A stretch of 64,000 bases of DNA from Straminergon stramineum (taxonomy: Eukaryota > Streptophyta > Bryopsida > Hypnales > Calliergonaceae), in NCBI GenBank assembly GCA_963920665.1, contig OY987273.1:5892501-5956500 (forward strand), given 5' to 3'. The stretch's first letter is position 1; every line of letters begins with the position of its first letter. Below are positions 16,139 through 52,650 of the stretch, one piece after another. The translations under genes were made by a program, and so were the position numbers. Under the pieces are notes generated by a model that saw nothing but the letters and a program-made list of their open reading frames with translations, ran no database searches and was not told the DNA's origin.

Positions 16139-16560
16139 CGTAAACCAAAACTAATTGAACTGTTGAAACAATCGCTAACTCACCACTCTTTCCCTCAACT
16201 ATACGAGCGCAAAACCACTGCGAAAGAAAGAGGGAGGAGAAATGGAAGTGGCGGGGGTTAAGTACCTGTCATCCTATCAACCGTTCTAGAAGCGGACCGT
16301 TTACCCGTAACGGTTCCCTAGATTCCTAGACCAGAACTCTAGACCGTAGGCTATCGCTATCCAGGTTTCCAAAATCTAGATTCGTCCTAGATCCTTTTAC
16401 GGAACATCTAGATCATCCTCTCAGCCTTAATGCAATGTTTAGGCTAAGAGGATTCTAATTCTGTTCTCCTATAAGAAATTTTGTAAAATTCTATACTATT
16501 ATAGACCTATTTTATACTAATCCGATGGATTCTGAGATTACGTCTCGCAACACCTAAAAA
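16139..16560 (-). repeat. LTR-like leader of the inverted gag element
   Basis: Read on the minus strand it begins TGTTGCGAGA near 16,560. It includes a TATA-like tagtataaaatagg followed by ctataatag, and runs to the gag ATG near 16,138. The same sequence occurs twice near 56 kb in opposite orientations. The TG start and TATA-like box suit an LTR promoter, but I could not define the LTR end or a primer-binding site. Confidence 0.45.
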
Positions 16561-23921: not shown

Positions 23922-25191
23922 CTACTCCATAAAAATGCTATTGGACTCATCAATTGCTAAATCTAGCTCTATGAACTTGGTTAAGTCCAAGTCATCGAGA
24001 AGGTGAAAAAGCCCCATTGCATCATCTCTCTGAAACGAGTACAATTCTGTGGGCCTTGCTTCGTGAAGGCGTTGAATATAAGGTAGAAGGTGATCGATAA
24101 GAATCCCATCCATGGCACCATATCCTTGGTATGACCACGTATCAAAGAGAATCACATTTTCTGGATTATTCTTGACTTGCTTTGCGGGACTGTCATCAAC
24201 TATGATGGTATTCTCTCTAGAGAAAATGGAATCCTCCATGTCAAACAACCTTTCCAACGGTTTGAGGAACAAGTCTTCATTTGTTCCCTTCACATTGTAG
24301 TTCACTATCCTTCCCTCCTTGCTTCTGTGCTTTAAAACGACACATTGCTCTTGCCCAAAGACATGCCACAGGGAGTCTATGCCCATGAAGAGGGCATTGC
24401 ACACTTTGACTACCGTGGCCCTTTACATGGAGCTCCAGACTGAGATGTTCGCAATCGTGGATAACTCGTGGAGAAACATGAGACAATGGGGCTGCATCTT
24501 CACGAATTTTTCACAAAAGGTGAGGCATTCTAAGGCTAGATTAAAATCATCAATATTGGTGAACTTCCTTTCCCTTGCGTGATATCTCTTATCCTCACAG
24601 ACGCAAAGTAAACCATTCATATCTAGGATGACATTGAGCCACTTCTCTGTGACCCTGAATGAAAATGGGTAGAGGACCTAGTCCTCTGCCTCACCAATTG
24701 AAACACATGCCTGACCGCTACCCTGTTAAGGATTTTATAGCCAAAACGTGGAGACCGTTAAAACCCATGCACTGCCCGTCACATTGAGAAACTAAAACTA
24801 AACAAGAAGAACGAATTACAGAATTGAAAAAGCCAAGGGCTCGAAAAGAGACACAATGAACTACAAAATGCTAAAATGAATTACTCACCACATTAGCTGA
24901 TTGATCAAGTGGAGAAGAAACTATTGCATCGACCAACTCTTTTGAAAAAGGGATATCCAACTCCCAAAGTGCCTAGTCAGAAAGATTGTCATCAACCTTT
25001 TCCTCGATTGCGTTGAACATGCTGACATCCTCTTCTTCCTCCTCAGGCATTGCGGAATGCATTGTGTCTACGTCTAAGAAGGCATCGCTATGTGGAGAAA
25101 GTAACTCCGTGCAGACACGTTGAGGACTAGATGCTAGGACAGACTCGATAGCAAGAAATGAAACATGGGGCAGAATTACATTGACAATCAT
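23922..25191 (-). pseudogene. FCP1/NIF-type HAD phosphatase-like protein
   Basis: Two exons. The first, about 25,191-24,889, starts at ATG 25,191 (MIVNVILPHVSF...), has an acidic EEEEEDVSM tract and one stop, and ends at a gtgagt donor. The second, about 24,730-23,922, is the catalytic part: VILDMNGLLCVCED, then NISVWSS, VFGQEQC, IIVDDSPAKQVKNNPEN and an FDTWSYQG segment before a helical end (DHLLPYIQRLHEA). This is the order of the FCP1/SCP (NLI-interacting factor-like) domain of the HAD superfamily, which dephosphorylates proteins such as the RNA polymerase II C-terminal domain. The usual DxDx(T/V) reads D-M-N-G, so the second Asp is Asn; related plant proteins with DxN exist, and activity is doubtful. 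One stop (near 24,421) interrupts the domain. Codons and strand fit its neighbours. Confidence 0.65.
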
Positions 25192-25367
25192 GGAGCCCGC
25201 AGTTGTGAAAATTGTACACAACAATTAATGGTGTAAGAAAACAATTTTATTATAATATCTCAGAATGAGAAATAATGTCACAGTTACATACATTGGAAGT
25301 CTTCCTCCACCTACCTATGTCTTTTGGCGCAGTGCATTCAATGGACGAACGGAAAACTTGAAGGCAA

Positions 25368-25391
25368 GTTCAACTCGATTTGAGTTGAATG
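25368..25391. repeat. Palindrome copy just 3' of the ParB-like gene
   Basis: Reads as AACTCGATTTGAGTT with extra complementary flanks. It lies about 20 bp beyond the likely stop codon of the 25.4-29.4 kb gene. Confidence 0.7.
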
Positions 25392-26382
25392 AGAGGTTGG
25401 AAGGTCACTGGGAAGAACCTAGTTGTTCCTCAACCATAGGATGGAGGGACTTCTCATCCGCCACGGCAATCTCTTCCTCCACCGTTTGAATAGAATCATT
25501 TACATCTTGTGGAGCTAAGTCCGATGTCTGTGCAATAGGCGATTGGTCAAATGTTGTGGCCGTCATTGACAGATTTGCGAACCCCTACTATGCTTGCCTC
25601 TCACTATCAGTTGAGGTATGAGGCTGATTGCCAATACAAAGTTGTTGTGATTGACTAGGGGAGGGCGTGATCATTTGCATCGGTGTCGGATTTGCGGCGT
25701 GCATACTCATATAAACGTCTTGAGCAACGACCACACATACTTGAGGCATCATCTTGTTCATCATGTCCCTCATCATAGTCATGTCCTCCTTCCTTGCCTT
25801 CTTGTTTTCCGCTCAGTCCTCCAACAGCATGCGCAAGAGCATCTCCATCGTCATCTCCTCCTTTGGCGACTCTTCTCTAGTCCTCTTCCAAGGATCACGC
25901 TTGGATGAGCCCGGAGTGAGGTTGGGACGCTCCCCCGGTGATGACGACGAGCCACGCATACTGTTGACCTCAGTTGGATTTGTCAAATCAATTAGATCCC
26001 CATCTGTGCTCGGAAACAGCCGCGTCACAAGATCCATCTATGTTGGAGTATGCTCTTCACTATCATCAATGAGATGGACTATTGTCTAAAGGTCATCCTC
26101 GTCGTCCGAGAGTTCTTCTACCCGAGCCGAAGATGTTGCCTTCCCCTTTCTCGAGCTTGTTGCACCCCTCGCCGACATGGAGGCCTCTTTGGTTCCCTTT
26201 TGCACGTGTGCGCCTTCATCCACGAAGTAAGCGGAATCAAGGAAATCATCCTTGTCCAAGTTCTCCGACATCACGGCAAGATTCTGAAATCTATCGTGAT
26301 AACTATTGTCCACAATGGCGAAGTGATCCAACCCACTCATTTGCATCACAAGATATGGATGTCAAACAAAAGTAATCGACCA

Positions 26383-26510
26383 GTTCAAGTCGAATCGACT
26401 TAAAACCAATTAGGAATTGGTAGAAGTTTATAATCATCAACATTCAAAAAGGACCGCCATCACACCTATCTTCATGAAAATAAATTTCAACTCGAATCGA
26501 CTTGAAATGG
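26383..26510. repeat. Two palindromes inside one intron
   Basis: Near 26,383-26,406 (AAGTCGAATCGACTT) and near 26,485-26,508 (ctcgaatcgacttg core). Both lie in the intron between exons 2 and 3 of the ParB-like gene, one towards each end of it. The intron begins with gtaagc at 26,519. Confidence 0.7.
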
Positions 26511-27960
26511 AATGCTTACCCAAGCAGCGTAGATGAATTTTACACCTGCGAAAATTGAGAGGATGTCTCTTCTTGCGTTACAAAAGAGGTCCAGAACATG
26601 CAAATAGAACTCCATGCGGAGTTTGGTATCATAGATCCTATACTCTAGCTCATTATACAGACCCGACTTCTTCCACTTGGTGATCTTTGGGACGTCAAAC
26701 CTCCTCGAAATCAATTTCAACTTAATCCTTGTGCCTTTCTTCACCAAAAAGATCAAGTAGACAAGTGCCTTCGCGCAAGTGGCACTTGTGGCTAGGTTTT
26801 CCAAGTGCTCGACAAGCGTCGAGAGGTACTTTGAGAAATGCGCTACATACGATGCGCCAAATTCCCTAGTCCTAATATGTGCCCTGAGTTTATCATCCGT
26901 CTACTGGTCACCACAAATCCACAACCACACCTTTGGGTCGGTCATGCAAGGATCATCCAACTTCATGAGCAGATCCATGAATATAAGGAAGTAGGGAGAG
27001 TCTCGAAGAGCTATCTCCTTGTTAATCACTCTTGGATTATTCCGGAAGTCAATCGACACAAGCTTGAGGGAGTCACCCATGGCATCGTTCCATACATCAT
27101 TGTCCCAAGACAATAGTTTGTCGTCCTTCATGTCATAGGGTCTCAAGTATGATATGGCGTCTGGCTTCTTATACTTCCCCTTGCTTTTCAAGAAGACCTT
27201 AAAGAACTTTGCAGCGTAGGGTGAAATCCCCCGTCAACTTTTGTTCTTGTTTGCTGGTCTCTTCACTTGCGAAAAGAACTCTTCTCTAGGAGCCGTCAAA
27301 AGGAGTTGTTTGGTGGCCTTCGTAACGTCATAGTTTTGCTTGAATGCCTTCCACTGCTCCTTTTTGTAATCCCTATTACTATTGAAGAATCTCAAGCTCA
27401 ACTTCTTGAAATACAAGTACTTCTTGACAGCTTGCTTTCGTTTATTTCGCTTGAGCCATTCCTTCGCACTGTAGCAATCCACAATGAATCCCGAGCCCTT
27501 CTTGATGGTTACTTTCGAGTGAGGATGCTCCCTTCCTAGCGTTCTATTCAGTAGATACAACGCCAACTTCTTGAGATCAGATTCGGGCGTGTTACCTAAT
27601 CATTTGAAGAACTCCTGACCTATCACCCCATCTTTCTCCGCCTCCTAATTCTTCGTATCCTTGTATGGCAATAAGGATTCCAGATCAATCAATAATCCCA
27701 GCGACTGGCTGGATATGACCTCTTTCCACAGACCATGCACTTCATCTAATGCAGTGATGATCTATATTTTGTTGTGGATGGATATATCTGCCACTTTCTT
27801 CTTCTTCAATGCACCTTGGGACTTCTTGACATCGATCATTGCAAAACGAAGTTTCATAGCATCACGAAACTCTTGTACCAAAACAGTAAAAGGGGAGAAG
27901 TCAATCACAGCAAATCAATGATACAATGTACTAGTGTTAGTGGCTCTCTGAAAGACTAGG

Positions 27961-27988
27961 ATTCAAATCAAGTCCATACGAGTTGAAT
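27961..27988. repeat. Palindrome inside the first intron
   Basis: AAGTCCATACGAGTT with complementary ATTCAA/TTGAAT flanks, located in the ~130-bp intron between exons 1 and 2 of the ParB-like gene. Confidence 0.65.
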
Positions 27989-29462
27989 GGAGGGGCATAC
28001 CGTCCACTTCTTGGCCATGACTAAGTCTCGAGGCGTTCGACTTTGGACAGCCATAGTTTTCTCCAACTCCGTCGGCTCTTTTGGGGGAGGTGGATGGTCA
28101 AGACTAATCCAGACGTTTCTCGCACTCGGTATGTTTGTCGCCCATGTTGGCATATAGTTCTGGAAATGATTCACCGTGTTATAATATGTTGAAATTTTCC
28201 GAATGATTCTCTCGTCTTTATTCTAGACAATAAAACAGTCCCACTCCTTGAACTTCTCGAACTTCTGCTCAGCCTTCGGAATGGCCTTCATTCTTTTCGA
28301 TGCCTCAATGCTATGTTGACCATTCACCATCCAAAATTTTCCGAACTTCACGTCTCTGTAGTCCAAGGGCTTGGATGAGAGATCTTGAGGCATTGCAAAG
28401 AGGGTCATCTTCTTGTTTGGATCGGGCATCTCTAGGAAGAACTTTAGCAATGACATTACCCCCTTTTCTTCTAGTCCTTGAATGTTAAAACTCTCGGGAG
28501 GGGGCTCTAGTTGTTCAATCGAGATGGTAAATTTCTTGTCTATCCTGAAGATGTAAGAGTCTATGCATGATGTCCAATATTCTTCATAAATTTTCTTGGA
28601 CTTGTTAGAATTCATCTCTTCTTGGCTTCCTTGTATGTCCTTCAGAAGCATAGTGAGTGTAGACGCCATGGTGTCTTCTAGAACCTTGGCAATCGCGTCT
28701 GCAACGGTCTTTCCCCGAGTCTTCGTGCCCACAATGGCGTTGGCGAAGGGTGTACCCCTGGGGTCTCTTTGGGTAGTTTTCTTCTTCGTCTTATTGCGCC
28801 CAATCTCTGTCGTCTCAACAACAAGAGAACTATGGCTCCCTCCCGCTACATTGTAGGACTTCGTTATGGAGAGAGGCTTCATATTTTTTGCTCTCTCCAC
28901 ATTCTTTGACTTCAATTGCTCAAATGCTTTGAAAACAACATTGAGTCGTAACGCCAGTGTCTTCGGTGGTAAGGGCCCTCCATTCTTGAAAATCCACCTC
29001 TTCTCTTCAATGTGATTCACAATATTTTTTTGAAGCTCATTGAAGTTTGAGTCTTCAAGGCTTCGACATGTAGTGGTTATTGAAAAGATGGAGACCTTTG
29101 GAGGTACAACATAAGAAAAGACGTATTCCTCAGCTTGATCAAGGTTAATCATCTTGCACGACATGATCAACATATTATCAGGACCCAGTGTTGACTTCCT
29201 TGATAGTTTCATATAATGAAACCAGAAGCGTCGTGGGACAGTTCTTGTACTTTATTGTGAAGCTCAAGTGACCGAACGCATGCGTCATGATGATACTCCA
29301 GCACTCGATGTGTTCTGGCTCATTCCACGTCCAGTACTCTCCAAGGAGGAGTTTCTCTCCATAGTCCTCAAGGTTCTCGTCGCCTTCTATTATGAATATT
29401 CGGAAGTGTGTCTTTAATTTTTTAGTTTGGTCCTCCATTTCTGCACATTGATTGACTCTCTG

Positions 29463-30249: not shown

Positions 30250-32200
30250 ACCCCCATGAATTGAAGTTGATGCTATTGCAAGTTCAAAACAGGTAGAACT
30301 ATATCTGGGTGGGGAAGTCCTAAATCTCTGAAATGGGAGAAAATGTACCTAAAGCATTAGGAAATGGACTATAGGAAGGATCTCAGTATCTCTAAGCAAC
30401 CCTAAATGACAGAGTCAGATGAAGAACAATGACTGCAAGACTTAGAAACAATGAAAACAATAATTATATGAAATACAAAAAGGAGCTTACCATCTTTTTG
30501 AGAAAATTCTGAAATTTCCATCACTGTATTGTGGCTTCACGTTCTTGTATTGATTCAGTAAGAGGATTCAACATCCCACAATCTGAAATGCCACATTGCA
30601 GACAATGAGGTTCATGAGAAAGATCTGTGCACAAGTCAAAGAAAGTAGAATACAGTAATGCAAAGCAAGAAAAAAGAATGCACAAACAGAATTTTCTGAA
30701 TGCACCTACAAAACTTAGATCTAGACCAAACAGAAAAATTCACAGAGACACTAAGTAGGACATGTTGTAGGTAGGCAAACAAAAGTCCCCAACCCTAGCA
30801 AATATGGAAACATGCAAGCTTGGAATCAACTAGAAGTCCAAAACCCTAACAAATGTGGAAACACGCAAGCTTGGAATGCATCCTACAACTAGTAAGCAAA
30901 TAATACAAAAACTTGGCATATAGTAATCATCAAACAAAAAACTCCAACAACAATGACAAGAAAGAAAAGAAACAAATGAAACTTTCGATGATGAAGAAGC
31001 AATTGAAGCACCTTTGCGGTGCCACTTCAAGAAAGAAACTCGCGCAATCCTACACCGCGAAGCCTGTCTCACAACCTTCCTTCCATACTCACAATCCCTC
31101 GATGACGTGCACAAAATTTTTGCAAACACAATGCATAAAACAGACACCCAGAAATGGAGGTGTCGCAACGAGTAGAAAGTAGAAAGCAGGACCTCGAAAT
31201 GACCCAGAAGATAGGAAGAAGCATATCTTGCAGAATCCTAAACCTATAGGGTACCCTATACCCATGTGGTACTTTGAAGCACCTTTTCTTTTTTAATTTG
31301 TGAGAAAAGGTCAAGATGTTGATTATTTAGAATTTGGTGAAGTATTTTATTTCTACAATCTACATTCATCTACCTTATGGAACAAAAAATAATTTTCAAT
31401 CATTTGCATGTACTTTTTCATCCAAATTTGGCTACTTCATCCACCTTTTCAATAGAAATGGAAATGTTCTTGCAAAAAAAGATTTCTTTTATCTGGTATA
31501 CAGTACACATTCATTTTGAAAATTCTTCAGTAGAAGTAGGTCCAACATTAAAAGGAGAATGGAATCATCAATACATGGCTTGAACATGGATCCTTAAATA
31601 TAGAAATCTTACCGGTGAGATTGTTCTAGCAAACCTAATGTTGTCAAACAATTTATTTTGAAAAATAGTGGAATTTTCATTCATCAATGAATTGTGCATA
31701 ATATTTCTTCAAGAAAATGCTCATATTGCCTAAAAAGGAACATTGTTCATATTAACTTTCACATCAAATAGAAGGAATGAAAGCTTAACATGTGGACATA
31801 AATGCAATCTTCTAGGGAAAAAATTTAATATTTTTATTTGAATATTTCGAAGATTTAGATTAAACAAAAAAATTCACTTGACCATTCACATCCACTACCA
31901 GGGTTGCTAGCGTGCGAGCCTGTGAGTGTGAGCTTGTGAGCTTGTGAGCGGGAAAAAAAGAAGTGGAAAAAACCACTAAGGTACCCATGACCGTGGATAT
32001 ACCTATGACCGTGAATGTATAGAATATGGAACTCCCTATTAGTGAATTTATTTTTTTCTTAATTTTTTACTGACTCATGAATTAAAGGAAAAAAAACATG
32101 GTTTGACATTTGCATTTGGTTTAGGGTTTGTTTGAAATGCACACATTTGTCACTTGCTCATAGCGGTTTAGGGTTGGGTTTAAGGTCTTTGATTCCTTAT
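30250..32200. other. Intergenic with a small 52-bp duplication
   Basis: Near 30,793 and 30,845 a ~34-bp phrase (ccctaRcaaatRtggaaac, then gcaagcttggaat) is repeated with a 52-bp period. The opposing ORFs at 30,830-31,168 (minus) and 30,913-31,182 (plus) overlap, and neither has a recognisable motif. Around 31,911-31,960 is a gtgagcttgtgagc stretch, which has an inverted counterpart near 50,040-50,095. No convincing gene. Confidence 0.45.
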
Positions 32201-33020
32201 ACTCTTCATCTTGGTTATTCTAATTTTTTTAAACCCCATTGCTTATTGTAATTTTTTTGCCACATCCTATTTTTTTGATGAGGACTATTCTGTTGTAATG
32301 GGTTTTTTTAACCCTCATTTTATTTATGAAGACTCTTGGGTTATTTTTATGTTCATAATTTTTCACACACCACATTTTTCTAAAGAAACTTGTATTGTTA
32401 ATTGTTGCAATTTTTTTTTCACTTCCTATTTATTTTCTTCAAATCTATGGTGTTGTAATGTTTTGGCACACCTTATTTTTTGGTATCAAGATTTTGGGTT
32501 ATTTTTTGTTCATAATTTTTCACACACCACATTTTTCCAAAAAGACTTCTATTGTTGGTATTTTGGTTTCACACCCTATTTTTTTGCATATTGTAAATAT
32601 TTTCCCTCCCTTTTGGTGTTGTAAATGCTTTTTCCACTCCCTATTTTTTTCATGAATATTGTGGTGTTGGGATGTTTTTTCCACTCCCTATTTTTTTTCC
32701 TTAAAATTGTGGTGTTGGGATGTTTTTTTCACACCCTATTTTTTTTTAAGACTCTTTGGTTATTGTTACGTTCAAAATGTTTTACACACCACATTTTTTC
32801 CAAAAAAATCTTATTGATGTAATTTTTTTTTGACTCCCTATTTTTTCTTCAAAATTTTGGTGTTGTAATGTTTTTTTCTCACCCTTTTATTTGTATCAAG
32901 ATCTTGGTTTATTGTTATGTTCATATTTTTGTAGGGTCCACTTTTTTTCAAAAAAAATTTTATCATTGTAATTTTTGTTTCACTCCCAATTTTTTGGGTT
33001 CAAGACTGTGGTGTTGTGAA
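32200..33020. repeat. Pyrimidine-rich degenerate tandem repeat
   Basis: The phrases cactccctattttttt, gtggtgttgggatgttttt and ttcacacaccacattttt recur many times. Around 32,636-32,740 the local period is about 47 bp; longer composite units occur before it. The plus-strand ORFs rich in Phe, Leu and His (32,211-32,822) are readings of the T-rich repeat and not membrane proteins. Confidence 0.65.
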
Positions 33021-33373: not shown

Positions 33374-36300
33374 CTAAGTCGCAGTAGACTTTGTTGTAGA
33401 ATCCATGTCACTAGAAGAATCTGAAGTCTCTCTCCCCTCAGATGCTGATCCATCTATGAGCTGCAAGACATTTAAAGCATACGAAGGTTTACGGCATTTG
33501 GGTTTTGAAGTACCAAATTCCGCAAACACTGAAGCTAGATGTTCTGCATACACTGGAAGATTGAAGGACTTTTCTGGACTCAAGATAAGTCTTCGTTTCT
33601 TCTTGGCTGCATCGGTTGACATCAATCCCTCGCTGTTGGAAACAAAAATGATAGAGTGTTAGATTTATGAAGCATTACAAGTACCATGCAAACCAAAAAT
33701 TTGGAAATGTAGAAACTTACTTACTAGGTCTATCTCGCCGAATAAACTTACGAGGTACCACGTTCATGGCATCTGGATCTTGTGATGCTACAATTGCAAC
33801 TACTTCATTAACAGTAACTGTTGTGACTGGAGTAGCGGTCTTCTTCATGGACTCAAGAATGCATGAAAAAATTGTTTGATTTGCCTCCAACGCCACAATG
33901 TGGCGTCCCGTTGCACGGCATGCTATAATGGAGGCACCTAAGAAGAAAACCACAAATCAATATCTCATTGATTTCTTGTATGACATTGAGATTAGAAAAA
34001 TACTTGCGACAATCCAAACTCACCCGTAGATGCTGTGCAATCAAGGGCCACGTCTCCCTCATCGGTAGTCCCCTCAACTATAAATTGGATGAAGCGGGCA
34101 TCCTTCTCTCGTGCCCCGCACCATGGCATTCGATCCATGTCATTGATCAACATCGAGTCTTCGGTCGTGTAGTTGATGAAGAAGTCATCACGCTTGAGGT
34201 CAACTTTGGCCTTCAACATTGTTGCCGACCGCTTGAAACAAAAGTTGGATTTACCTTTTGCACCGTGGTCTTTCACCAAGAGGGTGATGCCGAACTTCAA
34301 AGTCTGGAAGCATAAAATGATAAAACAACACATATATAAACTAGAACTCGAGGAAGATTATGAGATTAGAAATACAAAGAGAATTCTCATAAATGAATGA
34401 AATCATATTGTGTTGTTTTTGTCAATGGCCGACGTCAAGTGCACCCGATTCATGCCCATCCACTCTTTTTTTTTCACCATATTGGGGAACTCCTGACATA
34501 ATCCGGCAATGGTGCTTTTAGCATCCATGCTCCACGAATGGAATACCACAATGCAACTATGGTCTTGCAAATGCCTCTCCACAAAGAAAAATGCTTGGTA
34601 GATCATGTTGTATTCAGGATCTGAGTTCCAGTAAGGCACATGATTTTTTGAAAATGACACCCCCGGAACTAGCAAGTTCTCTTGGCAGTCAAAAAGCATG
34701 AGGTCAAACCCTGGCCACTAATTGAGTACTCCATTGTATACTCTGGCCTTCCCTACCGCCATCTGCCAAAACAAATTTGAACTTGTAAGTACCTACGACG
34801 TAGAAGGTGTAATAATGACATATTGTACTAATATAGAACAAGGGTAAAATACAGAATTATACAATTCATTTACCTTCTTGAAGAACTCCATGACCTCAGT
34901 GCCGCAATTTAGGCCATCATTGGTTTCATTCTCTACAACGTCTATAATGGAGACATTGAGCACTAACTCCTCTGATGTCACATCTTCATCGTCACCTATA
35001 GCAATCACTTCTGTGCCTTGGGTAACCATCTCTTTGGTGAACTCTAGTAGTATGGCCTTCCTCTTCATCCCACTACGTACTCTGGCTTCCATCTGAGAGC
35101 CTTGATCTACCGTCGATGACGTAGGAACTATACCTTCTCCATATTCCTTCTTCTTCCCTTTTGCCTTGGTCTTCTCCTCCTTCTCCTTCTCCTTGTCCTT
35201 CTCCTTCTCTACCAACTTTGCTACATGCTCTACCTCTTTTTTCTCTTTGTTTTCTAAAGCAACTTGGATTCGAGCCGCTTTTCTCCTGTCATTGGTTTCC
35301 CTCCTTGCGATGGCCTTCTCCCTCTGTTTATCAGTTAGCCCTGCAAACTCATCAACATCCATGTCAATAGTTCCCATTCCCTCCAAGGAGTTTCGTAGTT
35401 CAACCTCCGGTGGATGCATGTATGAGATGGGACAATCAATGTACCATCCGCCGCCACTAAGGTGAGCTATGGTGAATGTTCGGAGTTGATTTGCCGTATA
35501 CATGCAATCTGCAAAAGTACAATCAAGAAAAGTCAAGAGAAATGGAGGCAAGTCCTTTCCCTCGATTGCCCCTTTTGCCTCCAACTCTTGCTTGAAGTAT
35601 TTGCCAAAATATTAAGGAAGATTGGTACATGACATCGGAGATGAATAGCAAATATTAAGGAAGGCCAAATGAAATTTCAACTTCATGTAGTACTACATCA
35701 AAATAAGAATTTGAACTTTACAAAATATTGAACTATAAAAATTACATTGTGAAACCTAGAGGAATCCAAAATGGGGGGGGGGGCTACCAAGTACTTGTAA
35801 AACCATTGTCGGATTCGACAATGGTTTGGAAGGTACCACAAGCACCCCCCACTTCTAGTCATTCGCTTTGTTTCCATGTTTTCTATCATAATTAAAGGTG
35901 ACCAGAACCAAGACAATCTAGAATTTGAAATGCTCAAATAGAGTGAATCAAATTACTAGAAAGTAATGGAGGCATACCAGAAAAGCACTCTTTGCACTAC
36001 CTGTTTTGACCCCTCAAATGTCATGAAGTTGTCGCTTTTCTTGAAGTAGTTTGTTCCTCTGAGATGAGCCATGAAGCCTTGGTCCCAGATCTTCCTCCTC
36101 CAACCTTCTATATATTCGGACAAGGTCTCCGGCTGTTGTGGAACGTTGATGTTGATGTTGTCTTGCTTCACCACGTTCTCGAAATATTCTACAGCTACAT
36201 CTTCAATCTATAAAACATGTGAATTAGTGAGCATTTAATATGGCCCTATAAGGATTTCTGGAATACAAAATTTCATTAATTGTAAACTCTTCCGCTTTCG

Positions 36301-37981
36301 AAATCCAAATATAAGGCAAGAAAAAACTTACCCCAGAGTACCAAACGCATCTGTTCAAGAAAGGACCCAATAGTGTCTCAGATACAGGCCTCGATAGAAA
36401 CCATCTAGCATCACGTGAAGGCATTGAGGAGTTCCACCACTTCAAAAACTTCGTCTTGTGAAAAGGAATGGTGTTGCAAGTTGCCACCATTTGAAGTTTT
36501 TCAAGAGTCATCTCGGGGACCTCATTTGCACTCCAATGTTTTTCCACCTACACCAAAAATATCCGCAATAGAAAATCCAATTTAAACTCCATCGGAGACA
36601 ATTGTCATGCCCTTATTATACGTACATGAAAGTTACCTCTTCCAAAAATTCTGGCTTGTGAGTAGGATTGGCCATTGCCACCAATTTCATCATCTTGACA
36701 TTCAATTTGTTTGTCTTCTCTTTTGCTCCAGCTCTCATGGCATAAGCATGACCCTCGGTAGTTTTTTCTTGCTCAGGTGTCATCTCATTATACTTTCGCA
36801 GTGATGCATCCATTGCTTGGGCTATCTCTTGCTGCACAAATCCAATGAAATTTTTTTTTTTAATAATTCTTAAGACAAAAGCTATATTAGAATACAATAG
36901 GGTTTAGGACTATCAGTGATTGTAAAAATGTATAAAAAATAACATATTCATGTAGAAGCCTAAAAGAAGGTTAATTTCATCAAATAATTTCTCACCCGAA
37001 AAACAAAAGTTGTGAAGACCTCTAGGGGCATAGAGTACCAAGTCTTCCTAGTTTTGGGTGCCCTATATCATTTGAGTTTTGACGGTCTCAACATGTCGTT
37101 GAAGCGCTCGATGGAAAGAAGTACATATTTCTGAACTCGATACAAAGTATGGACGAAATTGGTCTTCACATGAGAATCCTCTATGGACCTGCCATTCATG
37201 GTCACACTTTTGATTAGGGTGTTGCTTGCCAAATGCAATACTTTCAAAGTAAATTCTAAGTCCAAGACAATGCCAAATTCACTAAGTGTAGAAGAAGTTC
37301 TTACTTGTTTATATCATGCATAACGTGCATGACCAATTCTATCTTTTCCTTTGTATCTAGAACAATGGAATCCATGGCACAATGCCAATCCCATTCCTTT
37401 GAGTGTTTCTTCCTTATATGATTCATCAACGAAATGAGCCTGTGATTACCGTCACAAACAAAAAACTTGAGGTTTTTCAAAAACCTCAACTCCGGCATGG
37501 ACTCAACATGGGCATTGAAAATGTCATTCCTCTTCTTCCATAACGGACCCCACTCCTCCATTTCCTCCTTAGTGAATGTTGAATTCTTTCCCGCTTCGTT
37601 TGTTACGGTGACATAGAAAACCGAGGCTCCATCTCGATATCCTTTATTGAACTTTTGCTCAAGCAACTTCAAATCACATGCAAGTGTTGGCCTTACCATA
37701 GGCATGGCCACCATTCGGTAGAGTGGGATCTGTAGTCGAAAGAGATGATCGGGCTTCATCCTTAGAGAAGCAATGGTCTTCACAGAATCCACCTTGTGAT
37801 ATGACCGCAACTCGTCCTCGTCAAAATCTTTGTCTTCCTCTTCTAAGATGGCTACCTCCATCTCCTCTTCTACAAAATCCCCTTCATCTTCACCTTCAAT
37901 GTCGGGCTGAGGAGTGTCATCGTTGTTTTGGGTCTCCATTATGGTATCATCATGTGACAAGTCTGTGGGAGACACATCCAT
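33374..37981 (-). pseudogene. ParB-like (DGNHR) plus N6/N4 DNA-methyltransferase-like fusion gene, spliced
   Basis: About nine exons read from ATG 37,981 (MDVSPTDLSHDD): 37,981-36,996, 36,831-36,637, 36,547-36,332, 36,207-35,978, ~35,595-34,874, 34,762-~34,405, ~34,305-34,021, ~33,938-33,722 and 33,632-33,374, most with good gt and ag signals. About 1,150 codons. After an acidic N-terminus, FFVCDGNHRLISLMNHI near residue 177 fits a ParB/sulfiredoxin-like motif. The middle is unrecognised, with a Lys/Glu coiled coil (KEKDKEKEKEEKTK). The C-terminus carries FDLMLFDCQENLLVPG, then DHSCIVVFHSWSMDA, and finally LDCTASTGAS with GRHIVALEAN, the order IV-then-I seen in beta-class N6/N4 methylases. 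The DPPY position reads D-C-Q-E, so catalysis is doubtful. Lesions: a frameshift near 37,300, stops near 37,070 and 34,719, and one doubtful donor near 34,405. Confidence 0.6.
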
Positions 37982-38214
37982 CTGTTTGTGCACCAATGAA
38001 AATTATCATAATTCATGTACTTGAAATAACAAAACCAGATTCAAAATGAAACATACACAATCAAAATTATAACATTACTCAATGAATGCAAATGCAATCA
38101 CATAGAAGGATGAATCCATTAGTGATTTTGAAAAAGGTAAAACAAGTATGTATTTCTGATCTAGAGGGATCGAAATCAATGTGTCTATAGAATGATTTGC
38201 AATGACTGGATTCA

Positions 38215-38702
38215 ATCAATGTCTACATCCTCCTCAAAGTCGGAACTCAAGTGAATGATCACCACTTCCTGTCTACCCTGAATTGATTTACAGTCACACT
38301 CATGTCGACATGTGTCCTCCCATATCGGACCATCAACAGTCACAGAAACCTGACTTTCTGAACTATATTCAATATCAAAGCTCTCTGGAGATATTACGGT
38401 TGTCTTCTATCTAGTAAAATCCAACATTCTTTGAAGACGTCTATGACACCAATGGACGTTGGGGTCACTCACTTGACTTAGACATGATACTTCAAAAGCA
38501 TCAACAGCACGGTGAGCGACATCCATAATATCATTGAAACTTACCACATTGTCCTCTTTGGCTTCTTCCTCTCCTGAGTCACTGAAGACCTCCAAGGCTT
38601 TGTTTGTTGGTGTCAAAGGCTCAGATGGCCCAGCCTCGTGAGAAATTGGGATATTCTGAGGTTGAACAATGGGTATTGATGTGCTCTCTCTATGTCCTCC
38701 CT
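38215..38702 (-). pseudogene. Acidic C-terminal exon, unrecognised
   Basis: Starts after a good acceptor (gggaaacag, near 38,703) and reads GGHRESTSIPIVQPQN, then EVFSDSGEEEAKEDN, a Cys-containing stretch (EVSCLSQVSDPNVHWCHRR) and, after one stop at about 38,408, an acidic end (SSDFEEDVDID) with a terminal stop near 38,216. It lies about 240 bp upstream of the ParB-methylase gene on the same strand. Its 5' exons are not identified; the basic exon at 43.7-44.0 kb is one possibility. Confidence 0.35.
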
Positions 38703-38889
38703 GTTTCCCAAAAAACACAATAAACAATCTTGAATTGAATCATACAATTCACATTCAACAAGAATTACATGAAGTACATGATTCATTTTGTTGGTAGGAG
38801 AAAGAAAAATCCAGATTGTAGGGGTCAAATACATGTTTGGAAGAGGACTGTCGGATCCAACTGTGGTCAGTTGTTCCTCCATTGGACCA

Positions 38890-39650: not shown

Positions 39651-39660
39651 CGGGAACTAT

Positions 39661-40745
39661 AATCAAAAATTCTCATCTCTAAAATTTTGCCAACACATTC
39701 CTTTGATCGCATTGTTCAGTTAAGAAAGTAGCCTCATCGATACCAAGCTATTGTTAGATTTTGGCTTCATGACACAAAGGTCAGGTAGCTCATTTGGGCA
39801 ATTAAACTTCTCTACTGAATCTGAGTACTGAGAACGAGTGAAGTCATGGTTTCGTAGGGTCAACCTGGCTAGCCTTCCTCATCTTTCGGATCCGATAGTA
39901 GCCAAAGGATTCCCACCTGGACCCTCAAGTCGACATTCAAGGAATTTCGAAATCCAACGCTGGAGTGGGAACGATTGTAACAAAGAATCAAGATTTTTGC
40001 TTGGGACTTAGAATCAAAAATTCTACCCTAACAAATCTCGCCAGCACGTTCCTACAATCGCATTGATAAGTCAGAGAGAAGCCTCATTGATACCAAGCTG
40101 CTCTCACATTCAATGGCTTCATGACACAAAGGTCAGGCAGCTCATTTGGGCAATTAAACTTATCTACTGAATCTGAGTATTGGGAACGATGAAGTCACCG
40201 TTTTCATGGGGTCAACACCTTTGGCCTTACTCATCTGTTGGATTCGACAGTAGCCAAAGGATTCTCACCGCGACCCCCCTAGTTGACATTTAAGGAATTT
40301 CGAAATCCAAACATGGGGTGGGAATGACTGTAACAGAGAATCAAGATTTTTGCTCAGGACTTAGAATCAAAAATTCTACCCTAACAAATCTCGATAACAA
40401 GTTTCTCCGACCATATCGATAAGTCAGAGAGAAGCCTCATCGATACCAAGCTGCTCTCACATTCAATGGTTTCACAACACAAAGGTCGGAAACTCATTTG
40501 GGCGATTAAACTTATCTATTGAATCTAGCAACTAGGAACAATGAAGTCATCATTTTCATGGGGTCAACCTGTTTGGCCTTACTCATCGGTCGAATCTGAT
40601 AGTAGCCGAAGGATTCTCATCGCGACCCCCCTAGTCGACATTCATGGAATTCAAAATCCAAACGCGGGGTGGGAACAATTGAAGGAAGAATCAAGATTCT
40701 TGCTCGGCAATTATAATCAAAAATTATAATCTCTAAAATTTCGAT
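39661..40745. repeat. ~351-bp tandem repeat, three copies plus a partial
   Basis: The phrase aatcaaaaattct begins units at 39,661, 40,012 and 40,365, and a truncated fourth begins at 40,715 (spacings about 351, 353 and 350). Each unit carries cctcatcgataccaagct, then atgacacaaaggtcagg-type text, catttgggc(a/g)attaaact, gatagtagccaaaggattc and ggaatttcgaaatccaa in order. Copies 2 and 3 are closer to each other than to copy 1. No ORF is conserved across units, so this is satellite-like and not coding. Confidence 0.85.
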
Positions 40746-44017: not shown

Positions 44018-45088
44018 AAGGAAGGCAACTACATGAAATCTAACACTCTAGACTCCATCACAGACCCTAAACTCAAAGCACGCAATGGCTGAAGATGGTA
44101 GAAATGACTTCTATTTATCAAGTTCAAAAAAATGGTGTAGGTGAATACACTGCCACATCGGAAAGTAGACTGATGACAGAGGCTTATATTGGCAGTTACC
44201 TAATGGTATGCCAAAGTTGGCTTGATGCGCCGTAAACATTCATAATGGGAGGTTAGTTAATCGAAGCTTAAATCTGACACATTCCAGAAACTTAAAGGCC
44301 ATCCAAAGCGCGGCTTCTATGCATTTATGATTTTTTTGAACATGGGTGCTCTAAAGGGAGTAAAAGGCGGCGGAGGACAGGCCTAGAATGATTAGACTTT
44401 GCAATAGATGACGGTAAGTGTAAAATAGATTAGATGGCTAGGGAGGCAATAGTTATTGCATGTGGATGGTGGCTACAAACAATACTTCAATAGCTGCTAA
44501 TTCCAGTATGTGTCATTTGCTAATTAGTGTACATGGCGGCAAATGACAGTGTTGTAATAAAAGAGGATGGTGGCGGAGGGCTACGCAAAAGTACATTTGA
44601 AAGACCTATTCTAATGGTGGACACCAAGTGCTGAGAGGACTACTAATACTATTTTATAAGTTGATGTAATTGACGATGATGAACCATTTGAGCCCCTTCA
44701 AATTCTTTGAGTCTCCATTCCATGCTTAGGACTAGGGGTCTTCTATTTCATTACCGTATGCATAAGTTGTCGAGATGGCTTGCATTCAAGTGGATGGTCA
44801 TGAGGTACCTCTTATGTTTCCCGTAGAGGATGGAGGACGTGCTAGAGTTCATAGTCATCTTCTCCTCGTCTGATTTAGATTTCTAGAGTCCTCCATTTAC
44901 GTTGAAGAAAAAGGATGTCAGAGTTAGGCAGAGTGAAAGAATGTGTCCCTGTTGTAAAATACGTAGAAGATGAAGGACATTGCTGGTACCTTTCCCCCAA
45001 GAACTATAGGGCATATGGACTTCCTCTCTCCATGTTGGGTTCTTCCACTGAGATTTTGAGTCGCTAGTCAGACAATTCAACAATAAAT

Positions 45089-48000
45089 ATGCCATATACA
45101 GGACACATTTCACCTAGTGGAAGTCCTCAAATTGCTTCTGTTCTTCTAAAGCCTATTTTACTTCAGATTGTGAAGATAGAGAAATTAGATCCAATTATAG
45201 AACTTTCTAGTGAATCGGAAGGAGAATCTCCTGAATTGACACTCAAAAATCTAGGATGTTCTATTGGAACTACAAGTACTGGAGGGGCTCTATTGAACTC
45301 TACATCTAAGAATCCATCAAATAGTCAATTGCAATCCACATTGTCTTGTCCTCTGTTGCATCTGTATCCAATCAACAAAGTAAGCATAATGGATTGTTTG
45401 AAGAACCTAGCCAACAGGCATCAGGCTCGAAACGAATTATCCATAATGGATTTGAGCGTCATGAAGCACCACCGTGTTGCTTTTCTTCCAGCAGTATTTG
45501 ATCGAGATATCATTTTCGAAATACCGCCATGCCGCTCCACTTCGTCTTCGTCGGCAGCACGGAGCTTGGAAGGAATGGACCAGCGCTATGATGGGCACCC
45601 GTGGTGTCGGCTCATCACCACAAACATCAACAACATCGACAACCTCAAGTTTCGTAAGTCCTATTGTGATGGCCATCTCTCTTGTATGAACCCAAATTGT
45701 GATTATTTGAATAGAACTTCCAAGCAGAATAAAACAGAGTGGAATGGCTTCACATCGATTCCTTTTGTAGTTGGAGATGGGCCTCCCAAAGACAATATCC
45801 TAGTTTGCAAAGTGTGTAGAAAACCACCTTCATGTCTTAGCCCTTGCAATGCTAGAATATAGTATGCTTTCAGTGATGACCCTGAAATGAATAGGGCTGC
45901 TAATCACTTTGGAGAGCACAACCACCCGGTTGCGAAAGGCATGTATAGAGATTCTGCGGAGCAAATCTGTGGGCTCATTGAAGAGCAGGTGGCTAAAATA
46001 CCAACGGCCACAAACTCGGCGATAGCTCTATCCGCTAGTAAAGAGTTCTTAACCAACTATCTATTTCACAACAGAGATGGAGAGGAGTTATTAAAGGGGG
46101 AAGAAATGGATGAGGTTATGGACTGCTTCCAATATCTTAGTAGTCCAAATATACGGAATGTGATCTCCTCTTTCCGCTTAAACAATAGAGGAGGGATCAT
46201 TGACAACATTATGACCATGAAGAAGGAGTCGAAATTCGAATTCATACACGATAGTGTCTTCCCCGGCCAAGGGAAGGAAAAGGTTTATGTCTTCAAAATG
46301 CTCACAAAAGGACCAGGAAGTGGAGTGGACCTTGTAAGGCGCATGCAACTAGGAGTTAATCTACAGAACACATGGTTGATGTTTGACCACATGAAGCGTG
46401 TGAAGGAGTGGACCACAATGGCCTGCCATGTGTACGATGTTGAGTACAAGAAGGTGATGACTATTGCAATGTGCGATATGCAATCCAAAGATACTGAGGT
46501 GCAAGTACAATTTTGGAGGAGCTTAAACATTGTCATGGAGCAATGGGGAGTGGCAAATCCAAACTTTAAAGGATTCATGGCAGACAGTGCTATGGCCAAT
46601 TGGAATGCGGTCCGGATTGTCTATGGCAATGGATCTGCCAATGAGGAAATGGAGAATTGTGAAAGGACCTGTTTGCTACATTGGAGTAGTTCTCTTCATA
46701 AACACACCCAAAAGTATATCAAGGAAGTACTTCAGTAGCAACATATTTCTCTGTGTAAGCAATATAAAGATTCCAAGAATATGGATGAGGTAGACACACG
46801 TTACCTAGCAATTTGATCATGGTGGTTATCATCCGGAGTTGCAAATGAAGAAGCACTTCATCACTTAGACCATTGGCTAGCATTTTGGCATTTTTGATAT
46901 CAGCAATGGGGAGGCTTCATGGATATGGTGAGTGAGGTATTTCTTTCTATGCATAAGGGGATTTCAACTAAATCTATGGTGATACATACAATTTGCTTTC
47001 TTTTCTAATGATGTAGAATAAAGAAAAAACTTCATTTTCTAATTTTAAATTTTCTGAGTTATACTTCCTAGATACCTGGAAGAGGGAGTGTATAGAATAG
47101 TGAAAAAAAATATGTCCGGTCCAACATATGTCTTTGTGGTGTTTACTAGCCCCCCTCTATTGACTGCCTTTAAGTGACCATACAAGTTTTCAAAGTCCTC
47201 ATGTACGATGTCACTACTTCCTTATACCAATTCATTGAAAGATCATTATGTTCTTCTATTTTAATGTAGTAAAATATGTGTATTTGAATTTGTCTTTGAA
47301 TGTACTTCATTGTCTGATAGGGCATGTTCAGTAGAACACAGAAGAGTCCATAGTTACAAATATGTATGAGGTATTGAAAGTGAAGTGCTAACTTTTCCTT
47401 GAACTTGTGTTCATTTCTAGAAATTGAAATTAGAAGAGATGCTCGACATGCCATCGTGTAATTTATCTAAAACTGTTCATAACAAGTGGCTCCAAATGTC
47501 TGGAAAAAGGGGAAACAACTTGTTTGATGCTACTTGTGACGACAATATTCGTGCTTGGATGCAAATGACAAATTATTGAGCATACCTTAGAGGTCATGCA
47601 CGTGGCTCTGGTCCATCGAAGAATGAATTGAAGTTGAGAGTTGCTAGTCGAAGTAGAGATCCAAAGAAAATTGCCGAAGCACTCAATATTTTACCTAGAG
47701 TAGAGGGGCTTGGAAATCCAATACCGCATTTAGAAGGAGAAGAGATCTTTGGAAGCACAAAAAGGAAGTTGGATCTACCCATAGGAGATGCTGGGGACTC
47801 ACATAGATCGAACAAACTCAATTTCTCTCAACCACGTGTGCGTACGAGGTCCACATCGATTTCTATTGAGATCTTCGATGCAAAAGGTAATGAGCCTACC
47901 ACAAATACTTCTCCACATGTCACTATTGCATGTGAAAGTGATTGTGATACATCAAAGTGGCACATTGCAAGTATCAACCACAAATCGAATGCAAAATGTC

Positions 48001-48809
48001 ACGCTCAACAACAAGGGTCAAATATCAAGTGCTCTGCTAGAATTGCAAGGGGAAGGAACGGTAACCTTGCTCCAACCTATTGAGATAGAAAACTAGATTA
48101 TGGTACTAAGCAAGAAGTGGTGGTTGACTTTTGGTTCTATTGGGATGATATTGAACGTTGTGTGAAAGGTTCAAAATGGAAGTGGATAATTGACTGGCCA
48201 AAGGTGCCTGAAATTTGGCATATTCTATCAGGGACACACCTCAATTGGGAAGAAACTCTCCTCTTGCAACATGCAGGATTTCAACTCCAACAACGCCGTA
48301 CATTATCGCCACGTCGACTTTTCAACATGTCAAACATTTTCAAGATTGCCTTGTTTGACCATCCACCACCAAAGAATGCAGATGCATATCCAACAGTCAG
48401 GAATAGCCGAACTATTCGTAGGATTGCAAATGCACCAACTATAAAGCATCGGAACAAGTGGGAGAGTGTAGGAAACATTAGAGGGCAAATTCTGGGAGTG
48501 ACCTTACTACCCCAACCGGGCTTAGGTGCAATAGTCTCGTTAGAGACAGGGGCAGACCATAACAGAAATGTCTACCGAATTACAATTGGCATGTTTCCCA
48601 CGTGCACATGCCCTGACTTTACAAATATGGTTGTTTCTGCTATTGAAGGTCGACAACAATACGTAAATTGCAAGCACTTGTACTATTTGTATAGGTACTT
48701 CTGCAAGATGGATGTCAACGAAGACAAATTCATTCATGCACCTAGTTATAGCTTCAATGAGTTGAAACTCCTTCTAGTTCGAGCTGGAATTATTACAATT
48801 CCTAAATAG
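45089..48809 (+). pseudogene. Mutator-like transposase with zinc cluster and SWIM finger
   Basis: Starts at ATG 45,089 (MPYTGHISPSGS). Exon 1 stays in one frame to about 46,930 through stops near 45,860, 46,736, 46,816 and 46,897. It encodes a Cys/His cluster (CDGHLSCMNPNC, CKVCRKPPSCLSPC, then FGEHNHPV), like the WRKY-GCM1-type fingers found at the front of Mutator-like transposases, and then a DDE-like core with WLMFDHMKRV, FKGFMADSAMANW and a CERTCLLHWSSS segment. A ~490-bp insert (about 46,930-47,421), with a plausible gtgagt donor and tttctag acceptor, looks like an intron. The rest runs from about 47,421 to 48,809 with stops near 47,577 and 48,081, and ends in a SWIM finger (CTCPDF, then NCKHLYYLY; C-x-C-x(n)-C-x-H) before the stop near 48,807. 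It would cut and paste its own element. No terminal repeats were identified. Confidence 0.7.
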
Positions 48810-50203: not shown

Positions 50204-52650
50204 GTTTTGGTTTTTTTTTTTTCTTATAGTGGCCTTAAATATTAATTGGCTTAATTTCTCTCCCCAAACTATCCACATTGACCATTCTATGTAGGATTTG
50301 ACTTCGGCATAGTTTCCTCTAAATCAAAATTTCCTTTCACGTATGGAAAGAAAACTTGAAGAATGACAAGAGGAAGATATAGAAGACTGTTTAATTTTGG
50401 GGGGTATTTAGGAGGTATGAAAAGCAAAGTAAACCTTGTCATCTTGTCCATTTTTTTCTCTCGGAAGTTTGTGAAAATTGAGTTAGAAAATGGATCCTAT
50501 ACACATTATTCTTTATTAAAAAGATAAATAGATACTATGATTGGAGTGCCTATAGAAACACATGCTTCATAATTACTTTCACAATACTAATGTAAATGAA
50601 ATTAACTAATCTCTCTATATTTTGACCAAAATTTATTCTATAAAGAATCGATTAAAGAAATTATTTAAAAATTTTAATTTGTGCTTTTTCTATGCATGAG
50701 CTTGACCGTTCTAAACTTTTTTCCCAAACATCAATTAAAATCTTAATTATATTCCCATGAATGGAATTTGTTTTTCCATCCTAAAATAAAATTTCCAAAA
50801 ATCTTGCTAAAAACTAAGATCGTAGGGACCAAATCAAACCTTGAGTTGTGTCCCAAGGGAACACTTGGGACATTTGGATTAAGGGGTTGATGAAAATAGA
50901 ACAAGTAAAAGGTTTTTGAACAAAAATCAATCTACCTAATAAAGTTGAGGAATTAAAGAAGTTGTAAAATCAATTGGAGTCAATTTTTTAAGATGACTGC
51001 ATTCAAATGGAAATAAAAAAAAATCTTGTTATGACTTCCACAACAATTAACTTTCATATAGCTGCTTGTGTTTAGAATTTTGAAGAACTATTGTAAGCGA
51101 CACAAAGTTTTAGGATAAAAGAGAAATTTGTATTAGTATGGCAATTACATTTGTTTGATGATTTAAAAAATTTTGAAGGGCACTTTCGAAGGGTAACTAC
51201 AAAAATAAAATTCTTTACTTTCTCCCCAAAAGGTAAAGGATTTGATTTGTGTGAGGTTTTGAAAGGCCTATATGTACCATAATTGAAGACTCTTAAGCTT
51301 ACTATTATATCTCATTTTCTAATGTTCAGCAAAATCTGCCAATTTCACTTCATTTCAAATCTAGAAATTTGTCTTTTCATCATCTATTTCCTTGGGAAAT
51401 GTTCCCAATAGGTTTAGTAAAGTTTGTTCTTGTTTTCCAACATTTTGAATCTAACCCCTAAAGGACCATTGTCCCTTTAGGGGACAAATGAGATTTTGGG
51501 CAGGTTCCTACGGTCTCAATTTTTGTCCTGCTTTTGTGAAACTTTTTATGAAGATAGAAAAATAGATTAGCTTCGTGAGAATATAATTTTTTTTCATGTG
51601 GTGCCTAGGAACAAAAGTTATGCCCACATAAGCCTAGAATAGGGGAGAGGGGGCAGCAAAAAAAATGTTTCAAAAATTTGAAATTTTTTATTTTTTATTT
51701 TTTTCCCTTATAGATTGTATTTTTGTCTACATGGAAAGCTTTTATTCATTCCATTTGGATTTGTTATGAGAAAGTTGTAGACAATCTTGTTTTTCGGGCA
51801 CTTAGAGCATCTTTCTAAACAAATAACTTACAGGATTCATTTCTCAGTGCAATTTTTACAATTTTTAAAAAAAAAAAAGGTCCTTATCATTTCATTTGCC
51901 TTCAAGAACAATCTCACCATTGGGATAAGCGAATTTTAATTCCATCTTAAAGATATGAATAATTTGGATTTTCCTTCTATTTTGTACCTACTTCTATTTA
52001 ACAATTTTTGAAAGAATCAAAATTAATTTTTTTTGTATTTTCTTTTTGTAACATTGAATGCCATGTAACACTTAAGAGATAATGGAATGGTGCATGGGGA
52101 TTATATATCATTGATAAAGGTAATTTGGAAGTGAAAGATAATCATCAACCTCATTTTACATAATCTTCTATATAAATTGGAAATTCCAAAATGAAGCCCT
52201 ACTCATTATGTAATGAAGTACATACTTTTACATATTTGTATACATCAAATGCATATACTCAATGCGATTCTAAATTCCACATATTAGGTACTTGAGCATT
52301 TAAACTTTTTAGATTTGTTTAGGCATACAATTGCATACCATATCATTGAATTGGCTCTTGGAAAAAAAGAACCTAAACATAAATATTATAATTGACATTG
52401 GAAATTAATGCCCCAAAACTATAGCATGTCAAAAAACATCGTATGACCTCTATCTAGATTGAAACTTATGGAAACTTACTCATATAATATGGGAACTTAC
52501 TACCTATGTGTGAATGTAATTTTCCTCCAATCAATGTCGAGGAGCGAAAGTTATGGCACACTCAAACAACCAAAAGTTGAACTCCATTGGTACGAAAAAA
52601 TTTTGGAAGAACATGAAATTAAATTTTCAATTTGTTATCCTTAACCCCTT
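49461..52650. other. AT-rich intergenic DNA
   Basis: About 3.2 kb without a convincing gene on either strand. It holds the (TA)n tract at 50,149. Near 50,040-50,095 lies a stretch (gctcgcagcttgcaagctca, then cacgctagcgtgg) whose reverse complement resembles 31,911-31,960. Confidence 0.5.
50149..50201. repeat. (TA)n microsatellite
   Basis: About 26 uninterrupted TA dinucleotides followed by gggttttgg and a T run. ORFs on both strands through it read as Ile-Tyr repeats and are artefacts. Confidence 0.95.

Follow-up and report, generated by a model that had tools for sequence, protein, structure and literature searches.

A decayed gene joining ParB-like and N6/N4 methyltransferase sequences in a putative Mutator-like element of the moss Straminergon stramineum

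What is a gene that joins a ParB-like motif to a DNA methylase-like domain, an arrangement that an earlier note on this locus traced to a phage or plasmid donor, doing in the DNA of a moss, and how did it come to be there? The gene lies in a 64,000-nucleotide stretch of the Straminergon stramineum contig OY987273.1 (here called the window), and its features are collected in Table 1. It occupies the minus strand from 37981 to 33374 and, when spliced, specifies about 1,104 amino acids with two stops in frame. The sequence blocks named in the earlier note are all present in the DNA, in the order and on the strand claimed. About nine exons with GT..AG introns had been expected; the spliced gene stands, but ten exons are modelled, and the GT..AG borders hold for eight of the nine introns, the donor of intron 7 being AT. 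Two lines of evidence indicate that this model is not a product of chance. The coding frame has only two internal stops, compared with 75 and 69 in the remaining two frames, and when the moss homologue discussed below is compared by tblastn with the unspliced window, it matches in six collinear blocks (best E 1e-41), with two block breaks no more than 2 bases from predicted junctions (exons 1/2 and 8/9). For exons 3, 5, 7, and 10 that comparison yields no separate block at E ≤ 1; they are supported by the spliced alignment, a single blastp stretch covering query positions 63-983 (E 4.6e-108). The weakest junction of the model is that of exons 5 and 6 (36001/35590), where moss homology begins at 35602, 12 bases ahead of exon 6.

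Table 1. Features of the element and its ParB-like/methyltransferase gene (window coordinates)
Feature	Position	Strand	Remarks
Left target site duplication (TSD) copy, 8 bp, TTTTGAAA	31514..31521		
Left terminal inverted repeat (TIR)	31522..31856	+	
Eight ~33-bp T-rich repeats	32244..32996		cluster just inside left TIR
ParB-like/N6-N4 methyltransferase gene	33374..37981	-	ten exons (predicted model); moss homologue E 2e-67
Exons 1-5	37981-37305, 37188-36996, 36831-36637, 36547-36332, 36207-36001	-	
Exons 6-10	35590-34874, 34762-34409, 34303-34024, 33937-33721, 33632-33374	-	
ParB-like region	37068..37807	-	exons 1-2 up to first stop; DGNHR inside; hhalign profile test
DGNHR	37453-37439	-	exon 1
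In-frame stop 1 (codon 266)	37068..37070	-	
In-frame stop 2 (codon 750)	34718..34720	-	
Methyltransferase domain	33721..34762	-	exons 7-9; motif IV DCQE within 34708-34676; motif I LDCTASTG, exons 8/9
FDLMLFDCQEN	34708-34676	-	
CIVVFHSW	exon 7	-	
Intron 7 donor, AT not GT	34407..34408	-	moss alignment gap-free over exon 7/8 junction
LDCTASTGAS	spans exon 8/9 junction	-	
GRHIVALEAN	exon 9	-	
352-bp repeat, about three tandem copies	39651..40745		between the two element genes
Decayed transposase-like gene	45068..48809	+	SWIM-type motif CxCx(19)CxH, C-terminal; CxxC..HNH zinc-finger-like block upstream
Right TIR	51663..52005	-	
Right TSD copy, 8 bp, TTTTGAAA	52006..52013		

The N-terminal half can be called ParB-like. 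A profile of the ParB-like region as bounded in Table 1 together with the next 34 residues scored 28.4 (E 0.0017) in hhalign against seven YbdM-type phage and bacterial ParB-like proteins, a value reached by none of 400 column shuffles; this was the significant result among four hhalign comparisons with ParB proteins. In it DGNHRL is aligned on DGFHRY, and the DG.HR box and the N[RK]...H block that follows it are in register with the YbdM-type profile. Against eight plasmid partition ParBs the profile made no convincing case (19.2, matched by 10 of 400 shuffles), and the two comparisons with single ParB sequences were not significant. For Pfam ParBc (PF02195), neither the N-terminal part of the window protein nor a fern homologue gave any family at E values up to 10 (the HMMER filters discard most matches above ∼0.1), and the moss protein matched PF01555 only. 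Searching the PDB with a profile of the ParB region yielded nothing beyond chance hits, AlphaFold models from three-row alignments (pLDDT 46 for window exon 1 and 31.5 for the moss protein) are too poor for a fold call, and Foldseek with the exon 1 model found nothing with E under 0.001; the ParB-like character was thus not confirmed by Pfam ParBc, partition ParBs, or folding. Elsewhere in the window, the open reading frame at 28223-29251 was considered as a second ParB gene and received no support from the profile test.

The C-terminal half, judged by its sequence, is a permuted N6/N4 amino-methyltransferase. It matches six PHROG families, all of them named methyltransferase (best E 3.6e-6), and a PDB profile search places DNA adenine methyltransferases at the top (E 0.0013), with an arginine methyltransferase also present (E 0.0026). 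The PF01555 (N6_N4_Mtase) match of the window protein lies under the curated cut-off of 26.7 bits (18.3 bits, E 0.0024), whereas that of the moss homologue is above it and covers nearly the whole profile (30.4 bits, E 4.9e-7). The catalytic block precedes the SAM-binding block (motif IV at amino acid 754, motif I at 936), as in the permuted beta type. The [DNS]PP[YFW] catalytic motif is absent, its place being taken by DCQE in the window and DTPF in the moss; the fern protein stops short of this point. The FxGxG SAM-binding motif is also altered, to TASTG in the window and SASTG in the moss, with the F and first G replaced and the last G kept, and the string ASTGAS..ACRA.GRH around it is identical in the two proteins. 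Since motifs IV and I are both altered, it is doubtful that the gene product methylates DNA. The proposal first made for this locus, that one spliced gene carries a ParB-like region at its N-terminus and an N6/N4 methylase at its C-terminus, is borne out by the moss homologue, the YbdM-type profile, the PHROG matches, and PF01555 in the moss protein.

The gene lies inside a 20,484-bp element (31522-52005) with ∼340-bp TIRs, an 8-bp TSD, and a divergently oriented transposase-like gene, so that its suspected carriage by a mobile element is upheld by ends that enclose it. The TIR alignment scores 206, compared with at most 69 in 500 Markov controls and at most 70 in 1424 controls from the window, and is identical in 232 of 326 aligned columns (71%), with 26 gap columns. 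The two TSD copies match at 8 of 8 positions; within ±12 registers the chance of this is 0.0016 (20,000 random pairs). Mutator-like elements (MULEs) are recognized by long TIRs and a TSD of 8-11 bp, and the ends found here have both. The SWIM model matches the transposase-like gene under its cut-off (E 0.10-0.13), and no transposase model, the MULE Pfam models included, matches it. The long TIRs, the TSD length, and the SWIM-type transposase-like gene together suggest that the element is Mutator-like, and it is probably of plant origin. The T-rich repeats near the left end are candidate binding sites; the pattern derived from these same repeats matches eight times where shuffles lead one to expect 0.10, and none were found next to the right TIR. 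The window also holds further inverted pairs of unrelated repeats, one of which (15249-16542 with 57740-56409) encloses a larger stretch.

Two in-frame stops in an otherwise coding frame mark the gene as a decayed copy. In a neutral simulation, two stops are compatible with no more than ∼0.05 substitutions per site after loss of constraint, whereas the TIRs differ by 0.36 (∼0.18 each); either constraint on the gene outlasted the split of the TIRs, or the TIRs were already unlike each other when the element inserted. The decay of this copy would be recent.

The Ceratodon purpureus hypothetical protein M758_1G295400 (1147 amino acids) covers 83% of the window protein (E 2e-67) and, like it, has both domains; the two differ at motif IV, as described above. 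Homologues found in searches of 5.8 billion sequences (7992, 2535, and 5717 scored candidates), which used a word filter that overlooks distant relatives, are this one moss protein and one fern protein (Adiantum nelumboides, locus L7F22_036439), the latter a homologue of the ParB-like part; no algal sequence was among the matches. With relatives in one moss and one fern, long residence in eukaryotes, as the earlier note had it, is a fair inference. Its phage or plasmid donor fared less well: parts of the window and moss proteins used as queries, which could reach close relatives only, found no whole-protein relative in the phage, plasmid, IMG/VR, and GTDB collections, and similarity there is confined to the methylase domain (264 phage and 140 plasmid records for the moss protein). 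In seven of the 20 phage and 40 plasmid matches listed, a set that leaves out the best-scoring methylase match (E 7e-5), a fused ParB was sought, and the annotated methylase was always a separate CDS of at most ∼260 amino acids. In one other phage record a ParB-like gene adjoins a methyltransferase gene. Within the reach just given, these results lend no support to a recent transfer from a phage.

The closest parallel is described from the brown alga Ectocarpus. The 21.5-kb element Sola1-1_Ec32 encodes a 1104-amino acid protein with ParB and N4/N6 methyltransferase domains, transcribed opposite the transposase, and its authors propose that this accessory protein binds and modifies its own transposon (Dinatale et al. 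2025, PMC12477816). Similar proteins of green and red algal transposons are cited there (Iyer et al. 2011; Petroll et al. 2025, for Bostrychia). As in the 20.5-kb element described here, the two domains lie in one protein of ∼1100 amino acids whose gene opposes the transposase or, here, the transposase-like gene; the Ectocarpus element belongs to the Sola-1 superfamily, whereas that of Straminergon appears Mutator-like, and the likeness of the proteins is one of described architecture. The same holds for bacterial Bce_0392, reported as an adenine methylase joined to a ParB domain and having nicking endonuclease activity; ParB domains are also noted in phage and conjugative polyvalent proteins (PMC5512222). 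The bdelloid rotifer N4CMT and a Marchantia 4mC methyltransferase are amino-methyltransferases of bacterial origin in eukaryotes; in the available text no ParB domain is described for them, and the rotifer enzyme carries SPPY as well as a chromodomain (PMC8885841). In a literature search that most subscription papers lay outside, and in the portions of sources accessible to it, the ParB-methyltransferase architecture in eukaryotes came from PMC12477816 alone, with none for land plants. Because this architecture is already published in brown, green, and red algal transposons, the present gene is a probable land-plant variant of the algal accessory protein, and a gene passed on by descent or exchanged among eukaryotic transposons is a simpler account than a phage or plasmid donor. 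New here, beyond the earlier note, are the decay of the gene copy, the ends of the element, and the divergent transposase-like gene.

It seems rather likely that this is a recently decayed transposon accessory gene whose intact copies bound and marked element DNA and which selection on the element maintained. In its reading frame a ParB-like domain is followed by a middle region and then by the permuted N6/N4 amino-methyltransferase. In intact copies the ParB-like part would grip the element's DNA, perhaps at subterminal repeats, and the methyltransferase part would mark the DNA so gripped with 6mA or 4mC; such a mark may help to distinguish the element from host DNA, or promote its transcription or transposition. 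Selection on the element would have retained the passenger gene, a retention lost in this copy. A role in binding and modifying the element's own DNA is what we infer, with the catalytic motifs altered as noted.

The view that the TIRs and TSD are a coincidence of AT-rich DNA, the gene belonging to no single element, is highly improbable. The ends were chosen post hoc, TIR identity is modest, and one of the other inverted pairs brackets a larger stretch; even so, none of 1924 controls scored above 70, and the TSD matches in register. That a phage or bacterial plasmid recently donated the gene directly is scarcely credible: a bacterial ParB-methylase fusion does exist (Bce_0392, PMC5512222), and in one phage a ParB-like and a methyltransferase gene are neighbors, but the Straminergon gene has ten exons, its closest relatives found are plant, and scans that reach close relatives only turned up no relative of the fusion in the phage, plasmid, viral, and GTDB contigs.

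Capture by the transposon, in Pack-MULE style, of a prokaryote-derived host gene that has no role in the element is decidedly improbable. The Ceratodon homologue sits on a contig of 28,665,150 bases, which would suit a host gene; however, the same architecture is reported in transposons of brown, green, and red algae, and the sparse matches (one fern, one moss) are unlike those of a conserved host gene, with the caveat that the word filter overlooks distant relatives. VANC proteins of Arabidopsis Mutator-like elements are anti-silencing factors, and the methyltransferase half of the land-plant protein might likewise be dead and the fusion a VANC-like DNA-binding anti-silencing or transposition factor. 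This is unlikely but deserves some weight: both proteins depart from consensus at motif IV (DTPF and DCQE) and share ASTG at motif I, the string around motif I is nonetheless identical in the two, and T-rich repeats cluster beside one TIR. Against it, the argument is built on two methylase sequences, the moss protein exceeds the PF01555 cut-off over nearly the whole profile, and the repeats occur at the left end only.

With the accessory-gene reading preferred, a wider and much more tentative suggestion is that land-plant Mutator-like elements mark themselves or resist silencing through a ParB-like protein that, on subterminal repeats, writes 6mA/4mC sites or, its catalysis lost, only occupies them and so escapes 5mC-based silencing, the family being shared by mosses, ferns, and several algal lineages through transposon transfer. 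An alternative prompted by the changes in the catalytic motifs is that the methylase now serves as a DNA-binding part. With a homologue in a moss, the idea put forward for the algal element, that a transposon is bound and modified by the protein it encodes, can be put to a direct test in a land plant. If intact relatives do methylate DNA, transposons would supply plants with 6mA and 4mC, and hosts might acquire such enzymes from them.

The ParB-methylase gene is spliced from ten exons in its final model, with 3,315 coding bases. Eight of the nine introns are bounded by GT..AG (AT stands at the donor following exon 7), G+C is higher in exons (0.445) than in introns (0.319), and the coding frame holds two internal stops versus 75 and 69 in the remaining frames. 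When decay was simulated neutrally, no more than two stops arose in 63% of 200 runs at 0.02 substitutions per site, in 7.5% of runs at 0.05 and in none at 0.1; because of these figures and the few internal stops, this gene copy is judged to be decayed, though slightly. Two short open frames immediately upstream, within the element, could be another accessory gene or 5′ exons of this one.

Relatives were sought among 5.8 billion database sequences. The spliced protein found one match at E ≤ 0.001 among 7992 scored candidates, an 839 aa protein of the fern Adiantum nelumboides that matches its N-terminal part (E 1.2e-13); the methylase part alone found none at E ≤ 1 among 2535. A profile of the window and fern sequences found one match at E ≤ 1 among 5717 scored candidates, the 1147 aa protein M758_1G295400 of the moss Ceratodon purpureus (E 2e-67, 83% of the query covered). 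The moss protein aligns with the unspliced window in six collinear blocks; two block breaks lie no more than 2 bases from junctions that had been drawn beforehand, those of exons 1/2 and 8/9, and exons 3, 5, 7, and 10 have no separate block. With the spliced protein it forms a single blastp stretch (residues 63–983, E 4.6e-108). By a wide margin, a single gene is a better reading than two separate ones; the earlier note's spliced gene joining ParB-like and N6/N4 methylase parts stands, with ten exons in place of about nine. The fern protein ends at the string IDVLLVDV, which resembles the beginning of a methylase domain; the fern gene model may therefore be truncated.

For the methylase half, Pfam N6_N4_Mtase matches the moss protein above the cut-off (30.4 bits, E 4.9e-7; profile positions 2–217 of 221) and the window below it (18.3 bits, E 0.0024). 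Six PHROG families match the window's methylase part (E 3.6e-6 to 0.0075), every one named methyltransferase or DNA methyltransferase, and a window and moss profile places adenine DNA methyltransferases at the top among solved structures (E 0.0013), with an arginine methyltransferase also found (E 0.0026). The catalytic block precedes the SAM block, which is the permuted order; at the catalytic position the window has DCQE and the moss DTPF, and ASTG replaces the usual FxGxG in each. With its two stops, the window copy would hardly be active as a methylase.

The N-terminal half is probably ParB-like, which we hold with fair but not full confidence. Its blocks follow the ParB order (basic block, DGNHR box, DINKS...H), and a stretch of about 45 residues would separate the second strand from the DGNHR strand. 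A profile of the window, fern, and moss sequences scored 28.4 (E 0.0017) against seven YbdM-type ParB proteins of E. coli and phages, in exactly this register; none of 400 column shuffles reached that score (mean 13.5, maximum 26.8). Against eight plasmid partition proteins it scored 19.2, a value that 10 of 400 shuffles attained. Neither a YbdM protein nor a partition protein, each compared singly, gave a significant match; Pfam ParBc matched none of the three sequences, a PDB profile search with the ParB region gave chance hits only, and structure prediction gave no usable model.

The earlier note had also proposed a phage- or plasmid-like donor. For the ParB-like part, searches of 50,697 phage records (best E 5), IMG/VR and GTDB contigs yielded no relative, and neither the methylase part nor the moss protein (close-pattern scan) yielded one in IMG/VR. 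In tblastn, 264 phage and 140 plasmid records match the moss protein, none covering over 80% of it; the 20 phage and 40 plasmid matches listed are all confined to the methylase domain, with coverage of no more than 22% and 12%, respectively. Because these scans reach close relatives only, they speak against a recent transfer, but would not speak against an ancient prokaryotic source. Arthrobacter phage LiSara carries a ParB-like domain gene (304–861 of its record) followed directly by a methyltransferase-annotated gene (845–1101); there the two functions are adjoining genes and are not fused.

Features of the window
Feature	Position	Strand	Remarks
Element ends	31522 and 52005		terminal repeats about 335 and 343 bp
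ParB-methylase gene	37981–33374	minus	
Short open frames	38212–38739	minus	38407–38739 without Pfam match
Decayed element gene	about 45068–48809	opposite to ParB-methylase gene	SWIM-type CxCx(19)CxH; zinc-finger-like CxxC..HNH block
Second decayed coding region	23922–29421	minus	outside element
ORF	29251–28223	minus	ParB-reminiscent NGQHSIEASK; profile tests of ParB likeness not significant
ORF	26900–26487	minus	ends in methylase-motif-I-like string; without Pfam match
ORF	24422–23922	minus	NIF phosphatase PF03031, E 2e-5
Inverted pair, ~1.3 kb	15249–16542 / 57740–56409		79% identical; scattered family, partial copies 17008–17695 and 55950–56256
hAT-like transposon remains	60349–62137	minus	DUF659 E 1e-26; Dimer_Tnp_hAT E 0.00064, just below cut-off
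ORF	5820–6188	plus	DUF7869, E 2.4e-14; possibly another transposon gene
Direct repeat, ~1.1 kb	13558–14646 / 18575–19646		73% identical, 5 kb spacing; possible LTR pair

Self-comparison of the window revealed an inverted pair flanking the gene on both sides. Its alignment score is 206; the 500 Markov controls reach no more than 69, and the 1424 same-window stretches no more than 70. Immediately outside the two ends, which were picked post hoc after inspection, the sequence reads TTTTGAAA on one side and TTTTGAAA on the other, a duplication matching at 8/8 positions (chance 0.0016, 25 registers allowed). Identity between the two repeats is 71% (232 of 326 aligned columns), a divergence that exceeds what the decay of the gene permits; therefore either their difference predates insertion or selection continued to act on the gene. 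In the decayed element gene Pfam found SWIM at E 0.10–0.13 only and matched no transposase model. Long repeats, 8 bp duplication, and SWIM block together suggest a Mutator-like element. Eight T-rich repeats cluster just within the left terminal repeat, on that side only, and about three 352 bp tandem copies lie between the two element genes.

A two-domain transposon passenger is well supported. Architecture, orientation, and element size all fit the class described for the Ectocarpus transposon (PMC12477816). Such a passenger has already been published for algae, which makes this case a variant; it contributes a member with moss and fern relatives, a differently built element, and altered catalytic motifs. 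Judging from the introns and the relatives, the host is probably a land plant. If the mechanism proposed in PMC12477816 is taken over by analogy, the protein would bind and modify its own element.
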